DNA of 34,557 nt from Candidatus Nanoarchaeia archaeon (lineage in GTDB: Archaea > Nanobdellota > Nanobdellia > Woesearchaeales > DATDTY01): positions 1 to 34,557 of the forward strand of contig DATDTY010000015.1 in the NCBI GenBank assembly GCA_035290625.1, written 5' to 3'. Shown piece after piece: positions 28,002 through 33,167 of this stretch; position 1 is the stretch's first letter; each line of letters starts with the position of its first letter. The notes under the pieces were generated by a model. The model saw nothing but the letters and a program-made list of their open reading frames with translations. It was not told the origin of the DNA and searched no databases. A program made the position numbers and the translations under genes.

Positions 28002-28032
28002 CCGTAGGGATACCATTTGCGAAGGGGGAAGC

Positions 28033-28168
28033 ATGGTCAACGTAGACATTGATGATACACTCTATAATGAGATCAAGGAGATTGTAGAGAAAGACAGGCT
28101 GAGCTACTCCTGCATCAGGCACCGGCAAGATGGCCTTTGAGAAGGTATCGGAGGTTAAGAAGGAATGA
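28033..28168 (+). pseudogene. frameshifted small ribbon-helix-helix gene, copy 1
   Basis: The frame starts MVNVDIDDTLYNEIKEIVEK and stops at 28140 after 35 residues. A second frame then continues GKMAFEKVSEVKKE to the TGA at 28166-28168, which looks like the natural C-terminus, so a one- or two-base indel probably broke the gene around 28112-28120. The intact relative is at 30341. The start follows GGGGGAAGC. The shifted frame's stop overlaps the ATG of the Bro-N gene (ATGA), so the original pair was translationally coupled. Confidence 0.7.
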
Positions 28169-28461
28169 ATCCGGAAAGCGCTTTAGTCGTATTTCAGGGA
28201 AAGGGGATCAGAGGGATATGGCACAATAATGAGTGGTATTTCTCAGTGGTGGATGTTATTGCTGCCTTAACAGACAGCCCCACGCCCATGCAATATTGGG
28301 GCAAGGTCAAGGACAGGGAATTTGCAAAGCTTGAGTTGTCCCCAATTTGGGTACAACTGAAGTTGATTTCAGCAGACGGCAAGAAATATGACACTGACTG
28401 CGCAAATACCGAGTCTATGCTCACAAGAATGAAGGCGCCACAAGTTTTATATACTACTTAG
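28165..28461 (+). CDS. truncated Bro-N domain protein (antirepressor-like)
   Basis: This is a 98-residue protein with most of a Bro-N domain: VVFQGKGIRGIWHNNEWYFS, VVDVIAALTDSPTPMQYWGK and the late SADGKKYDTDCANTE. Bro-N occurs in baculovirus Bro proteins and phage antirepressors and probably binds DNA. Normal relatives continue well past CANTE; here the sequence switches to LTRMKAPQVLYTT and stops, overlapping the promoter of the next gene. It looks like a 3' truncation by recombination. Its start overlaps the shifted frame of the preceding ribbon-helix-helix gene. Confidence 0.75.
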   Translation: MNPESALVVFQGKGIRGIWHNNEWYFSVVDVIAALTDSPTPMQYWGKVKDREFAKLELSPIWVQLKLISADGKKYDTDCANTESMLTRMKAPQVLYTT

Positions 28462-28478
28462 TATTACTTAGTTATACC

Positions 28479-28733
28479 ATGGAAGCTGTAAGCTTGAAAT
28501 TAGAAGATTCATTTTTGAAGGACATAGAGAGGTCTATGAAGAGGCATAGATATACGACGAAGACAGAGTTTATCAGAGAAGCAATAAGGGATAAAATGAG
28601 GGGCCTGGAAAAAGAAGAGGCATTATTGAGGGTAAAGGGGCTTTATGGGGCATCAAAAAGGAAGACAACAGATGCAGAGTTACATAGAGCCAGAGAAAAG
28701 GCTTTTAGAGAGCTAGACAAGGAGCTTAGATAA
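28479..28733 (+). CDS. CopG/ParD-type ribbon-helix-helix antitoxin
   Basis: This is an 84-residue protein with the ribbon MEAVSLKLEDSFLKDIERSM and the helix pair RYTTKTEFIREAIRDKMRG, then a charged tail likely to wrap a toxin. This is the CopG/ParD DNA-binding antitoxin pattern. TTTATATA near 28445-28452, within the Bro-N fragment, and tandem TACTTAG/TTACTTAG motifs before the start look like promoter and operator. Its last 8 bases overlap the end of the convergent PIN gene, an unusual tail-to-tail arrangement for a toxin-antitoxin pair. Confidence 0.75.
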   Translation: MEAVSLKLEDSFLKDIERSMKRHRYTTKTEFIREAIRDKMRGLEKEEALLRVKGLYGASKRKTTDAELHRAREKAFRELDKELR

Positions 28734-29133
28734 GGTCTTCTGGCAGTTTAGCAATGGTAATATCTCTTAACTGCATAAAATGAAGGTCTCGGGAGATCAT
28801 TTGCAGATTATTGTCTCTGCATAAAATAGCTTGTAAAGCATCTCCTTCAGGCACATTTCTCTGTTTAGCCGTCTTTTTAGCTTCTTCTTTTTGCTCTCGA
28901 TAGATATGAACTTTCTGGATATTATTTGGCTTGAGCATACTCAAAACAGAGTCTATTTGATCTTGGGTATAATCCAGATCTTTGAATTCTTTAACATTCA
29001 AATCGGAATACCCTATCCTGAGATCTTCGTTAAGTATCTTAAGAATCAATTTTAAAGCTGACCCTCCATTCTTACCCCTTTTCTCATGGAAATCTAACCA
29101 AATTGAGGTGTCAAAATAAAATCCCTCTGTCAT
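28726..29133 (-). CDS. PIN-domain ribonuclease, VapC-like toxin
   Basis: This is a 135-residue PIN domain. The acidic metal-binding residues are visible: Asp8 in YFDTSIW, Glu in NVKEF near residue 48, Asp in EGDALQAIL near residue 98, and Asp in MISRDLHF. PIN toxins cleave tRNA or rRNA with Mg2+. It runs convergent to the CopG/ParD-like gene with an 8-base overlap, so antisense transcription could join protein-level control. A separate antitoxin upstream on the minus strand is not visible. An independent PIN endonuclease is the alternative. Confidence 0.78.
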   Translation of the reverse strand: MTEGFYFDTSIWLDFHEKRGKNGGSALKLILKILNEDLRIGYSDLNVKEFKDLDYTQDQIDSVLSMLKPNNIQKVHIYREQKEEAKKTAKQRNVPEGDALQAILCRDNNLQMISRDLHFMQLRDITIAKLPEDLI

Positions 29134-29269
29134 TTAGATCAGCCACGTATCTCTCCTTATATAATTTGCTGATGAAATTGGTTTTCGTTTTGATTCTTGA
29201 GTGAAGAAAAAAACAACAATCTTTAAATAAACGCATCCATTCCGCATAAGAAATATGTTTGGGGGAAGC

Positions 29270-29371
29270 ATGGTCAACGTAGACATTGACGAGAAGCTTT
29301 ACACTGAGATCAACGAGCTTGTTGGAAAAGACAGGCCGCTCAGATGGTCGTGGCAGAACGGAAAAACTTAA
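29270..29371 (+). pseudogene. truncated ribbon-helix-helix gene, copy 2
   Basis: The frame starts MVNVDIDEKLYTEINELVGK and diverges after DRP, ending in RWSWQNGKT at 29371, 33 residues against 46 in the intact copy at 30341. The first 20 codons, the GGGGGAAGC leader and the TATA region match copy 1. The 3' end has been replaced by sequence leading into the operators of the nucleotidyltransferase gene. Confidence 0.65.
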
Positions 29372-29418: not shown

Positions 29419-29919
29419 ATGGGCATCCTTGATTTTTTAAGATCAGACAAGAATACGAGGAAGGTATTCGGGAAGAGGGAATTAAAGATTATTGAGAAGC
29501 AGCTCTACGGAGTTGCCTTAAGCCAGTCAGAGAAAAACAGGCTCTCCCGGGATATACGCAAAAAGCTTGAGTTTATGCGGGAAGCTGCCAGGTTTTCAGA
29601 AGAATTTGAATTAAAGAAGGGAAGCATCATCAAAGACGCAATAGAGGAGGCTAAAGAGGCCATCTTAGCTGAGTCTAACAAGGTCAATGAAATACGGCTC
29701 TACGGCTCTGCAGCAGAGAATACTCTTACGCTCAGGTCAGATATCGATATAAGCGTTGAGTTTTCCGCTATCAGCCTAAAGGAGGCAACGCTGTTCAGGA
29801 AGAGGATTTCCGGAAGGGTCAATCCCCGGATAGACATCCAGGTCTACAATCATCTGCCTGAGAAAATAAGAAAAGAGATCAGGGCTAAAGGCAGGGTGCT
29901 GTATGAGGATAAAAGATAA
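29419..29919 (+). CDS. MNT-type minimal nucleotidyltransferase (antitoxin-like), module 1
   Basis: This is a 166-residue protein. A helical N-terminal half (about residues 1-85) precedes a minimal nucleotidyltransferase fold with GSAAENTLTLRSDID (residues 96-110), giving the GS motif and Asp108/Asp110, and a third acidic strand PRIDIQVY. MntA-type antitoxins silence HEPN toxins by AMPylation. The usual Arg of GSxR is absent here (Ala), so the fine specificity may differ. The stop overlaps the HEPN start by 17 bases, showing tight coupling. The tandem palindromes upstream imply autoregulation, although no DNA-binding domain is obvious. Confidence 0.8.
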   Translation: MGILDFLRSDKNTRKVFGKRELKIIEKQLYGVALSQSEKNRLSRDIRKKLEFMREAARFSEEFELKKGSIIKDAIEEAKEAILAESNKVNEIRLYGSAAENTLTLRSDIDISVEFSAISLKEATLFRKRISGRVNPRIDIQVYNHLPEKIRKEIRAKGRVLYEDKR

Positions 29920-30319
29920 GACAGAAGAGATTGAAGGCTACCTCTCAGAGCTTTCAGAGATCATGCCAAAAAGCCTTGAGGAATACAGCGAATTAAAGAC
30001 AAAAGCTGCATGCGAGCGGTATTTTGAGAAGATTATTGAGGCAACAGTTGATCTGTCTTTTTTGCTGATCAAGGAAAGGCGGCTAAGGCCTGCTGAAGAA
30101 GATAAGGAATCCTTTGATATCATCTCAAAAGAAGGGCTCATCCCTGCTGAACTGGCAGGCAGGCTTAAGGATGCCAAAGGGATGAGAAACATACTTGCCC
30201 ATGAGTATGGAACCGTTGATGATGAAACTGTTTTTCACGCCATAACAGAAGAATTGGCAGGCGATATTAGGGAGTTTATTGCTCATGTTAAGCATAGGGA
30301 AAAGGAAGAGAAAGGATAA
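29903..30319 (+). CDS. HEPN/DUF86 toxin-like RNase (HepT-like), module 1
   Basis: This is a 138-residue all-helical protein of the DUF86/HepT group. The RNase motif is RNILAH (Arg95-His100), the Rx4-6H signature, in GMRNILAHEYG, the context typical of HepT. HEPN toxins cleave RNA or tRNA and are neutralised by an MNT partner, here the overlapping upstream gene. The C-terminus is a charged helix (HVKHREKEEKG). The third ribbon-helix-helix copy begins 21 bases after its stop, which may add a regulator to the operon. Confidence 0.85.
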   Translation: MRIKDKTEEIEGYLSELSEIMPKSLEEYSELKTKAACERYFEKIIEATVDLSFLLIKERRLRPAEEDKESFDIISKEGLIPAELAGRLKDAKGMRNILAHEYGTVDDETVFHAITEELAGDIREFIAHVKHREKEEKG

Positions 30320-30340
30320 GACAGGAGAGTTGGGGGAAGC

Positions 30341-30481
30341 ATGGTCAACGTAGACATTGACGAAAAGCTGTATGCTGAGATCAAGGAGATTGTTGAGAAA
30401 GACAGGCTGAACTATCCTTCCATCCGGCATTTCGTGCATAAGGGATTATTGGAGAAGGTGAAGAATGGGGGGAAGGGATGA
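30341..30481 (+). CDS. small ribbon-helix-helix protein, intact copy 3
   Basis: This is a 46-residue protein, MVNVDIDEKLYAEIKEIVEK then DRLNYPSIRHFVHKGLLEK and a basic tail KVKNGGKG. The order beta-strand, helix, YPSIRHFV, helix matches a minimal ribbon-helix-helix DNA-binding protein. It is the only intact member of the three copies and starts after the same GGGGGAAGC. Its last 20 bases recur at the end of the chimeric frame at 31930-32004, just before the sugar dehydrogenase. It probably acts as a regulator or antitoxin; targets are unknown. Confidence 0.7.
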   Translation: MVNVDIDEKLYAEIKEIVEKDRLNYPSIRHFVHKGLLEKVKNGGKG

Positions 30482-30570
30482 ATCCTTGATTAGGCTGCGG
30501 ATCTTGGACAGGCTTTTGAGGGATTTATGCCTTATGGAGGTTGTATGGTGAGGATTTGCGGAGGTCTAGG

Positions 30571-30648
30571 ATGAAGCTGGTGGGTGTTATTCCTGCGTTT
30601 GATGAGGAAGAGCCCGTTGCCATTGCACGTTTATTTTCATTTATTTGA
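30571..30648 (+). pseudogene. 5' remnant of a family 2 glycosyltransferase
   Basis: The frame reads MKLVGVIPAFDEEEPVAIA and then six unrelated residues to a stop at 30648. V-x-IPA-x-DEE is the first strand and nucleotide-sugar loop of GT2 glycosyltransferases such as dolichol-phosphate mannose synthases. Homology ends about at the first operator of the next module, so the remaining gene was lost when that module arrived or by later deletion. Between 30482 and 30570 are further short coding-like scraps (for example LRILDRLLRDL). Confidence 0.65.
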
Positions 30649-30753
30649 AAATATGAGGTATTATTTATAAATGAAAACAAGTATATTCACTATTTTGAAA
30701 ATAGAAAGATTTAAATATATGAAACAGTTATCTATTTTCACTATTTTGAAAAT
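30633..30753 (+). promoter_or_regulatory. three operators at about 50-bp spacing before MNT/HEPN module 2
   Basis: ATTTTCA-N6-TGAAAAT is found at 30633-30652 and 30734-30753, and with one change in the left arm at 30683-30702. Start-to-start distances are 50 and 51 bases, close to five helical turns. TATA-like sequences lie between and after them (TTTATAAA near 30664, TTTAAATATA near 30710, TGTATATA near 30753). The arrangement suggests cooperative or looping repression by the winged-helix nucleotidyltransferase encoded at 30811. Confidence 0.78.
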
Positions 30754-30810: not shown

Positions 30811-31437
30811 ATGTTCCTCGAAAACGTGGTAGGATCAAAGGCAAAAGTAAAGATACTCAGGGTTTTATCAGAATCCAGAGCTGCTTTCAGCCTGCAAAAC
30901 CTCAAGAATGAAACCGAGCTGAGCATTGGAATAATCCACAAGGCCCTTGAGGAGTTAGTCGAAGAGGGGATTTTGCTTAAAATCAAAGGAAGCAGAAAAG
31001 AAAGGCTCTTCAAGTTCAATACTGAACATCCTTTCGCCCATGAGGTATTTGAGATTTTCAGAATAGAAAAAACGCGGCAGCGGAAAGAGATTGTATTTTT
31101 ACATACATGGAATGTCCTGGAAAGCGCTGTTGCAAAAATAAAAGAAAATGCCGGCTTAATCATGCTCTTTGGAAGCCAAGCCAGGGGGGATGCAACATTA
31201 CGAAGCGACATTGATTTGCTGATTGTGCCAAAAAATTCCCAGGATGGGATTTTAGATGCGCTGCGTGAGGTAAAATCAGGCAATAAAATAAACGCAACGG
31301 TTATAAGCCTGGAAGCCTTTAAGAACGATGCAAAAAAGGACACGTTATTCCACAAAAACATAAAAAGCGATTCCATCATCCTGCATATCAGTCCTGAGCT
31401 GAAGGAAGAGGTAGCCTCATTTCTGGGGGTCATCTAA
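30811..31437 (+). CDS. winged-helix/MNT nucleotidyltransferase fusion, module 2
   Basis: This is a 208-residue protein. Residues 1-75 form a winged helix (GSKAKVKILRVLSES, LSIGIIHKALEELVEEGIL) and residues 105-200 a minimal nucleotidyltransferase with GSQARGDATLRSDIDLL (from Gly121; Asp133, Asp135), the full GSxRGD-like motif. Here the antitoxin-like enzyme carries its own DNA-binding domain, fitting the three-operator promoter in front of it. GGAGG at about 30794 precedes the ATG. Its TAA is directly followed by the HEPN ATG at 31438. It should AMPylate or otherwise restrain the HEPN partner. Confidence 0.88.
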   Translation: MFLENVVGSKAKVKILRVLSESRAAFSLQNLKNETELSIGIIHKALEELVEEGILLKIKGSRKERLFKFNTEHPFAHEVFEIFRIEKTRQRKEIVFLHTWNVLESAVAKIKENAGLIMLFGSQARGDATLRSDIDLLIVPKNSQDGILDALREVKSGNKINATVISLEAFKNDAKKDTLFHKNIKSDSIILHISPELKEEVASFLGVI

Positions 31438-31908
31438 ATGGATAAAGAATTTGAAGAAAAATGCCTGGGCAGGAGAACGCTCACATTGGAGCCTACGGTA
31501 ACCAACATAGAGGACAACAGGATGGTGCAGCAGCTGTCAAAACAGCATAAAAATAATTCTGAATATTTTCTGGAAGGCACCAAGGCGCTATTGAAATCTT
31601 CTGCCCCATTATTAGCGGTGTTGACAGGCTATTTTGCCATGGAGCACAAGGCAAACCAGATTTTGGCTTTGAAAGGCTATAAAGTCGAAAGCCATATTTG
31701 CGTGCAGATTGCCCTAAGCCGGGTTTTAGGCAGGAGAGCTCTTGCAAAGAAAATAAGCCGGGTTTTTGAATTAAGGCAGAATATCGGCTACCGAATGTTT
31801 TTAGCCCATAGCGAAGAAGAGAGAGAAAATACAGAGAAGATTATTAATGGGGACATTATTCCTTTCATAAGAGAGATTGATGGCCTGATAGAGAAAGAAG
31901 ATTATTAA
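31438..31908 (+). CDS. HEPN-domain protein, toxin-like partner of module 2
   Basis: This is a 156-residue helical protein. A HEPN-type helix pair includes FLEGTKALLKSSAPLLAVLTG, YFAMEHKANQILALKGYK and a late RMFLAH (Arg119-His124), which fits the Rx4H RNase signature. It differs from module 1 and resembles the HEPN domains that accompany kanamycin-nucleotidyltransferase-like proteins. It starts immediately after the stop of the nucleotidyltransferase, the standard MNT-HEPN gene order. Substrate and toxicity are not visible from sequence. Confidence 0.82.
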   Translation: MDKEFEEKCLGRRTLTLEPTVTNIEDNRMVQQLSKQHKNNSEYFLEGTKALLKSSAPLLAVLTGYFAMEHKANQILALKGYKVESHICVQIALSRVLGRRALAKKISRVFELRQNIGYRMFLAHSEEERENTEKIINGDIIPFIREIDGLIEKEDY

Positions 31909-31929: not shown

Positions 31930-32004
31930 ATGAAATTAGGGGTTATTATCCCTGCACTTCGTGCGCAAAGGATTGACAAGGTGAAGAATGGGGGGAAGGG
32001 ATGA
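31930..32004 (+). pseudogene. chimeric remnant: glycosyltransferase start joined to ribbon-helix-helix end
   Basis: The 24-residue frame reads MKLGVIIPALRAQRIDKVKN and GGKG. The first nine residues are a GT2 glycosyltransferase start like that at 30571. From CACTTCGTGCG onward the DNA matches the 3' end of the ribbon-helix-helix gene (compare 30428-30481), partly in another frame. Its TGA overlaps the ATG of the sugar dehydrogenase (ATGA at 32001-32004), so it may still act as a coupled leader. Confidence 0.65.
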
Positions 32005-33167
32005 AAAGCGTCTGCATTATCGGCCTGGGGTATGTGGGCATGCCACTGGCTGAGTTATGCGCTCAGAAAGGGTATGATGTTGTTGGATATGATATTCTCG
32101 AGAAGAAATCCAGGATAAAGACGACTACTGACCCTTCCTGCATCAAAGAGGCTGATATTGTCGTGATGTGCGTTCCCACTCCTGTTGATGAAAGACACAA
32201 TCCTGATTACGGTCCTGTGCAAAAGGCAGCTGAGTCAATTTCAACGTTTATGAAGCAAGGCCAGCTTGTGATCATTGAATCAACCCTGAATCCCGGAGCG
32301 ACTGAAGAGGTCATCAAGCCGATTCTCGATGAGAGCGGAAAGAGGTATAATCTTGCCTATTGCCCTGAAAGGATTGATCCAGGAAACAAGGAATTTACGC
32401 TTACAAAGATACCAAGAGTCATCGGAGGAATTGATGCAGAGAGCTTACAATTGGCAAAGAAATTCTATGCCTCAATCCTCGACTCACCAATCAAAGAGAT
32501 GAGCTCAATCAGGGCAGCAGAGGCAGTCAAGATTGTCGAGAATACATTCAGGGATGTCAATATCGCTTTTGTGAATGAATTGGCTAAAGGCTTTGACAGC
32601 ATCGGCCTTGATGTGATTGAGGTTATCCAAGGAGCGTCAACAAAGCCGTTTTCCTTTATCCCCCATTTCCCTTCCTGCGGAGTTGGAGGCCATTGCATCC
32701 CTGTAGATCCATATTACCTTATCAGGAATCCCGGCAAGAACGGCTTTGACTATAAATTCCTGAAATTAGCGAGGGAGATCAATGAGGGCATGCCTGCGTA
32801 TACGGTGAAAAAGGCACTAGAGGCAATTACGGAAAAAGGAAAAAATGCGAAGGACGTGAAAATCAGCGTTCTTGGCTTGGCGTATAAGGGGAACGTTCCT
32901 GATATCCGCGAGAGCCCTTCCTTCGAGATCATTCATGAGCTGAGGAAGCTGGGGGTTGAGCCTTTGGTTTTTGATCCCCATGTTCCTGAAAAGTCAAACT
33001 GCAGCTTTGAGGAGGCTCTTCGCTCTGATGTCCTGATATTTGCATCAAACCACGATGAGTTCAGGCAGATCGACTTCTCTAAGATGAAAGATAAGATCGT
33101 GATTGACGGAAAGAACTTTTTGAAGATTGAGGATGGCTCGATAACCTATAAGGGGATTGGGAGATGA
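32001..33167 (+). CDS. UDP-sugar 6-dehydrogenase (UDP-GlcNAc/ManNAc dehydrogenase type)
   Basis: This is a 388-residue NAD-dependent enzyme that oxidises the C6 alcohol of a UDP-sugar to a uronic acid in two steps. Motifs are IIGLGYVGMPLA (residues 6-17), VVMCVPTPVD near 55-64, IIESTLNPGATE near 91-102, AYCPERIDPG, the linker VKIVENTFRDVNIAFVNELA and the catalytic PSCGVGGHCIPVDP (Cys232 the likely nucleophile). GLAYKGNVPDIRESP marks the C-terminal domain. CGVGGHCIP favours the WbpA/WecC group over UDP-glucose dehydrogenase. It would feed glycan synthesis, in line with the glycosyltransferase remnants upstream and the Thr- and Asn-rich surface proteins. Confidence 0.9.
   Translation: MKSVCIIGLGYVGMPLAELCAQKGYDVVGYDILEKKSRIKTTTDPSCIKEADIVVMCVPTPVDERHNPDYGPVQKAAESISTFMKQGQLVIIESTLNPGATEEVIKPILDESGKRYNLAYCPERIDPGNKEFTLTKIPRVIGGIDAESLQLAKKFYASILDSPIKEMSSIRAAEAVKIVENTFRDVNIAFVNELAKGFDSIGLDVIEVIQGASTKPFSFIPHFPSCGVGGHCIPVDPYYLIRNPGKNGFDYKFLKLAREINEGMPAYTVKKALEAITEKGKNAKDVKISVLGLAYKGNVPDIRESPSFEIIHELRKLGVEPLVFDPHVPEKSNCSFEEALRSDVLIFASNHDEFRQIDFSKMKDKIVIDGKNFLKIEDGSITYKGIGR

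Follow-up and report, generated by a model that had tools for sequence, protein, structure and literature searches.

The window, by which we mean the whole 34,557-nucleotide stretch that was analysed, is contig 15 of its genome and carries a two-gene operon preceded by an array of three palindromes, referred to below as operators 1 to 3 (Table 1). The first gene encodes a protein in which a winged helix is fused to a nucleotidyltransferase of the MNT type (wHTH-MNT) and the second encodes a HEPN protein, the ATG of which directly follows the stop codon of the first gene.

Table 1. Position of the operators, promoter elements and genes of the module in the window.
Feature	Positions	Strand	Description
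Operator 1	30633-30652	.	ATTTTCATTTATTTGAAAAT; ATTTTCA-N6-TGAAAAT, exact
TATA-like element	30664-30671	.	TTTATAAA; halfway from operator 1 to operator 2; may be a second promoter
Operator 2	30683-30702	.	ATATTCACTATTTTGAAAAT; ATATTCA-N6-TGAAAAT, one mismatch
Main promoter	30703-30719	+	BRE-like AGAAAGA, then TATA box TTTAAATA (30710-30717)
Operator 3	30734-30753	.	ATTTTCACTATTTTGAAAAT; ATTTTCA-N6-TGAAAAT, exact
wHTH-nucleotidyltransferase	30811-31437	+	208 aa; first gene of the two-gene operon
HEPN protein	31438-31908	+	156 aa; AF0298-like/class II

The assignment of both a winged helix and a nucleotidyltransferase domain to the first gene, made in an initial sequence-only reading, was supported by profile matches and by an AlphaFold2 model. 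The model (pLDDT 86) showed three helices and a wing at residues 10-69, a helical linker at 76-110 and the MNT fold from residue 114, and Pol-beta/NTP_transf_2 profiles matched the protein. The GSX10DXD signature is intact (GSQARGDATLRSDID, G121 to D135), and G121, S122, D133 and D135 are invariant. Fold and profile neighbours were MarR/Lrs14-type regulators and MNT antitoxins, and the fold neighbours also included HalB of Hailong next to MNT antitoxins and MarR-type regulators. The PDC-M05A models of PADLOC cover the whole wHTH-MNT architecture; PDLC04368 matched residues 7-190, wHTH included, with E=5.9e-20. The NCBIfam MntA model did not reach its cut-off (28.9 bits, cut-off 60), and where the neighbouring MntA (RVNPRID) has an acidic residue, wHTH-MNT has KIN/KINP instead. 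The initial reading held that the majority of described MntA antitoxins have no DNA-binding domain attached to them; this is true for the antitoxins that have been studied. Fusions of wHTH and MNT are common in archaea, and several more lie beside HEPN genes in the same genome.

The model of the second protein (pLDDT 91.5) has the HEPN fold, and PDB entry 2hsb (AF0298) was its closest match by sequence profile and by fold, with weak E-values (0.15 and 0.009). The RX4HXY motif of HepT comprises both the residues of the RNase and the tyrosine that is AMPylated. This motif is absent from the HEPN partner, where the conserved motif is R113-x4-Y118. The invariant residues across the family and its distant paralogues are G80, H86, R113 and Y118; H86 and R113 are thus retained, with a tyrosine where the histidine stood, as in AF0298-like HEPN-T proteins. 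The sequence RMFLAH (R119-x4-H124) was considered as a catalytic motif and rejected because it is not conserved: it is present only in the window copy, and it is followed by SE, not by xY. PF05168 scored 18.8 bits with the window HEPN, just below its gathering score of 22, and matched five of the six HEPN family members at E<=0.01. The NCBIfam HepT model gave no match with the HEPN partner. Similarly, the PDC-M05B models gave no match with the window HEPN at E<=1; they matched four of 14 aligned HEPNs (best E=1.8e-11), and paralogous HEPNs are reached. A similar MNT is paired with a HEPN in structure entry 9xbd, for which we found no paper.

The array had been described as three copies of ATTTTCA-N6-TGAAAAT at 50-51 bp, with helical-turn spacing and TATA-like boxes between them. 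The three sites are real and two of them are exact, but the middle copy carries one mismatch. The start-to-start distances were measured as 50 bp between operators 1 and 2 and 51 bp between operators 2 and 3, and the TATA-like boxes lie between the operators as described (TTTATAAA at 30664 and TTTAAATA at 30710). The helical-turn spacing is approximate only, as 50-51 bp correspond to 4.8 turns at 10.5 bp per turn, which is not an integral number; therefore, successive operators do not lie exactly on one DNA face, and the constancy of the spacing points more to a fixed geometry of the protein than to simple phasing. The exact sequence TTTTCA-N6-TGAAAA occurs twice in the 1.37-Mb Woesearchaeales genome, both times in the window array. 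This restriction to the array, together with the excess of spaced pairs over shuffled sequences (see below), indicates that the operators are more than chance occurrences.

Orthologous modules were sought with an alignment query in 353 genomes of the order, which gave 11 modules at E<1e-60; the next wHTH-MNT subfamilies appeared only at 1e-24, leaving a clear gap. Extending the search to 371 genomes of the phylum brought two more modules (G413 and G494), which come from the same class and lie outside the order. There are therefore 12 modules in other genomes and 13 with the window copy; these 13 are partly related by descent, many of the genomes are fragmented assemblies and the start codons are predicted. 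The HEPN gene is directly behind the wHTH-MNT gene in all 13; among named relatives, the nearest ones with the module are Candidatus Woesearchaeota genomes. No wHTH-MNT of this clade was found in viral contigs, and a plasmid search gave one distant match (28%, Sinorhizobium).

Sites resembling TTCA-N6-TGAA were present at all three positions, 50/51 bp apart, in 10 of the 13 modules. The three-site grid precedes orthologues G302, G338, G294, G276, G260, G280 and G351. G494, whose module came to light once the pattern had been set, carries three exact TTCA-N6-TGAA sites spaced 50/50, and G413, likewise a later find, has variant sites with the same 50/50 spacing. The conserved spacings are 50 or 51 bp, never 52-53 bp nor other multiples of the turn. 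The position relative to the promoter is conserved as well: in 11 of the 13 modules operator 2 begins 24 bp ahead of the TATA box, and in the register fixed by this box nearly all modules have operator 1 at -74 or -75 and operator 3 at +26 or +27. Operator 1 has a counterpart in 12 modules; it is degenerate in G331, as is the array of that genome, and absent in G261. In G113 the three sites (51/51) are displaced upstream by one unit, and no clear site 3 occupies the usual place. The sequence-only reading had proposed a search for the operator in front of homologous modules, and the operator was indeed found across many families of the order, as well as in the two genomes from two other orders; these modules do not lack the repeats, and the sequence, the spacing and the TATA position are all conserved.

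Site numbers were compared with those expected from 2000 dinucleotide shuffles. For the ten orthologues of the order (window excluded), four of which belong to one genus and are not independent while the others come from different families, we counted 16 exact sites versus 0.10 expected, and 27 sites with at most one mismatch versus 2.36 expected; pairs spaced by 50/51 bp numbered 15 versus 0.01 expected (shuffle maximum 1). No such pair was found before 25 paralogous wHTH-MNT loci. In the 353 genomes the exact tandem pattern gave 11 matches, eight of which precede the module (in five genomes), and the reversed control pattern gave one; two of the three remaining matches are within unrelated open frames and one is intergenic in G113. 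This G113 match consists of two TTCA-N6-TGAA sites 50 bp apart in an intergenic region of contig 139 (1501-1564, locus L157) with no adjoining module; the module of this genome sits elsewhere, and the pair is possibly a second target or a relic. In a very large viral-contig collection the tandem pattern gave 100 matches, none of them near relatives of the module.

The tree of the 13 modules departs from taxonomy: G413, although outside the order, nests with the window genome (G000), G302 and G338 (62-65% identity), and the two f62 genomes are unpaired. This discordance indicates that the operator moves with the gene, in other words that the array travels together with the module. Half-sites with TCCA tend to occur with Leu39 in the recognition helix, and ATTCA-N6-TGAAT with Arg39; this covariation was discarded as evidence, since the pattern follows the tree and proves nothing.

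The block ATAGAAAGATTTAWATATA, directly behind operator 2, is the best-conserved part of the upstream regions of the 13 modules; we take it to be a typical archaeal BRE/TATA. The right arm of operator 2 runs into the BRE-like element. The element of TTTATAAA type is found at the same midway position in G302, G413, G280 and G351, and a sequence resembling it in G494, G276, G260 and G331. Operator 3 is expected to overlap the transcription start, judging from the usual archaeal distance from TATA box to start. With operator 2 beside BRE/TATA and operator 3 over the start, a bound repressor would flank TBP/TFB and cover the start.

Taken over wHTH-MNT genes at large, single upstream palindromes showed only a modest enrichment compared with other genes (p<0.05 for 6 of 35 wHTH-MNT genes and 6 of 70 controls; rank test p=0.008), and we therefore make no general claim on wHTH-MNT genes. 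Another wHTH-MNT subfamily (L009, L019, L020, L022 and L023) has the palindrome TGTTMA-N6-TKAACA just before the start codon; it is weaker in L022 and present in three copies, at -76, -56 and -19, in L009 (G000 contig 22). In a further subfamily, L021 and L030 from two different genomes have TGTTGCA-ATTA-TGCAACA over the start codon.

The module has a canonical class I MntA/HepT pair directly upstream (29419-30319). The HepT of this pair (29903-30319) contains RNILAHEY and matched the HepT model at 96 bits, and the MntA of the pair has Asp where wHTH-MNT has Asn. The region 28165-29133 holds a BRO-N-like fragment, an RHH antitoxin-like gene and, on the other strand, a PIN-domain gene; together with the two MNT/HEPN pairs these genes form a TA-rich island beside a UDP-glucose/GDP-mannose dehydrogenase gene. 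Fragments of one RHH-gene stretch recur at 28032-28121, 29269-29336, 30340-30482 and 31951-32005 (83-88% identity), with a 31-nt copy at 30452-30482 and 31975-32005 that differs by one base. They lie at the borders of three consecutive TA-like cassettes, as though every cassette had gone in beside a copy of the same border sequence.

We propose that wHTH-MNT very probably represses its own operon via the three palindromes, and that the operon is an autorepressed, toxin-antitoxin-like class II HEPN/MNT module. Binding, repression, dimerisation and bridging are inferred, and this protein is linked to the sites by the co-conservation of array and module. A wHTH dimer, alone or complexed with HEPN, would bind each TTCA-N6-TGAA site. 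Occupancy of operator 2, which abuts BRE/TATA, and of operator 3, which would span the expected start, would exclude TBP/TFB or the polymerase, and operator 1 would either add cooperativity or cover the second TATA box between operators 1 and 2. The constant distance of 50/51 bp would be that of a multivalent protein assembly bridging neighbouring sites. The module would thus keep itself low by autorepression and rise once the repressor is titrated or lost; it is probably either toxin-antitoxin-like or a candidate defence system (PDC-M05).

The sequence-only reading had gone further and suggested an antitoxin that is at once repressor and AMPylator. The repressor part is well supported by the conservation of the operator with the module, but the AMPylator part is conjectural, RX4HXY being lost in the HEPN. 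That wHTH-MNT represses the operon and also AMPylates a HEPN RNase toxin, as MntA does with HepT, with looping among the three sites, seems to us doubtful. It fits the intact GSX10DXD, the MNT antitoxins among the closest folds and the invariant Y118 after the conserved R113; the invariance of Y118 keeps neutralisation of a HEPN toxin by AMPylation possible, and class II HEPNs reportedly keep the tyrosine as a candidate for adenylylation (PMC7641770). It does not agree with a partner that has RMFLAH in the window copy only, whereas the neighbouring HepT has RNILAHEY, nor with the KIN/KINP replacement and the NCBIfam MntA and HepT models that were not reached. As for the looping, or a cooperativity between operators, it is possible; the spacing is fixed, but the number of turns is not integral. 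The HEPN may be catalytically inactive or substrate-binding, the pair being a nucleotidyltransferase that modifies something else and keeps autorepression. HEPNs that lost RX4H were proposed to bind substrate or to be non-catalytic in other NTase pairs (PMC3710099), and HalB of Hailong is a structural neighbour; nevertheless, the invariant H86 and R113 fit the alternative AF0298-like active site proposed in the same work, and we regard this reading as rather unlikely.

Two other explanations concern the repeats themselves. Another cellular regulator, for example of stress or defence with several targets, might bind the operators, wHTH-MNT being linked to them by inference and one G113 tandem pair lying away from the module; this is improbable, as the genome has the exact site nowhere else and the array persists where the module lies in other families, other orders and other gene neighbourhoods. 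That the repeats are mobile-element ends, integration sites or replication iterons is hardly credible: the module does belong to a row of TA-like cassettes with repeated fragments at their borders, but these insertion borders differ in sequence from the operators, which hold a fixed register with the TATA box across many genomes and do not lie on either side of the module. As a speculation that we hold only loosely, the 50/51-bp grid could be a ruler: a wHTH-MNT/HEPN hetero-oligomer would clamp two or three operators around the TATA box, and transcription would read the ratio of the two proteins or the nucleotidylation state, a form of conditional cooperativity in which one protein is repressor, antitoxin and nucleotidyltransferase.

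Class II HEPN/MNT modules are more prevalent than class I in archaea according to PMC7641770, and 59% of the related PDC-M05 systems are archaeal (PMC12988326). A tested function for either is reported neither in PMC7641770 nor in PMC12988326. The conserved operator geometry provides a concrete regulatory link and predicts that the nucleotidyltransferase itself is a transcription repressor. The operator and the wHTH set the class apart from MntA/HepT, which has the same gene order and a different HEPN active site. The operator code, TTCA-N6-TGAA here and other palindromes before some paralogues, could be of help in sorting out paralogous modules and the insulation between them.

The closest known relatives are the class II HEPN/MNT pairs (PF05168/PF01909; Yao et al., 2020, PMC7641770). 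The module shares with them an archaeal GSX10DXD MNT upstream of a PF05168-like HEPN and the loss of RX4HXY with the conserved tyrosine kept. According to that study, no biochemical work on class II existed as of 2020; the attached wHTH and the three-site operator are features of the module not found described in its consulted passages. More broadly, a three-site, fixed-distance operator tied to an archaeal promoter was not found described for class II in the literature searched; wHTH-MNT fusions were already known, as was autorepression by an MNT antitoxin without HTH (PMC4621449). With the class I HepT/MntA type VII toxin-antitoxin the module shares gene order, MNT fold and GSX10DXD, and it differs by a HEPN without RX4HXY, an extra winged helix and scores below the NCBIfam cut-offs. 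The PDC-M05 candidate defence system (PADLOC; PMC12988326) has the same nucleotidyltransferase and HEPN layout and a full-length PDC-M05A match, but the PDC-M05B models do not extend to the HEPN of this clade, and the antiviral role is that of a candidate. AF0298-like HEPN-T proteins (PDB 2hsb; PMC3710099) share the upstream His and R-x4-Y at the place of the usual motif, at low identity; the upstream histidine may replace the lost one (Anantharaman et al., PMC3710099). For the regulation, SO_3165/SO_3166 of S. oneidensis (PMC4621449) is similar in that its MNT antitoxin acts as a repressor by binding to its own promoter, which has two palindromes, and differs in that there is no HTH, the two palindromes are dissimilar and the promoter is bacterial. 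Finally, although AbiEi (PMC7319586) belongs to a system of unrelated proteins in which the nucleotidyltransferase is the toxin, it is similarly a two-domain antitoxin of a nucleotidyltransferase system that represses its operon via several inverted repeats.
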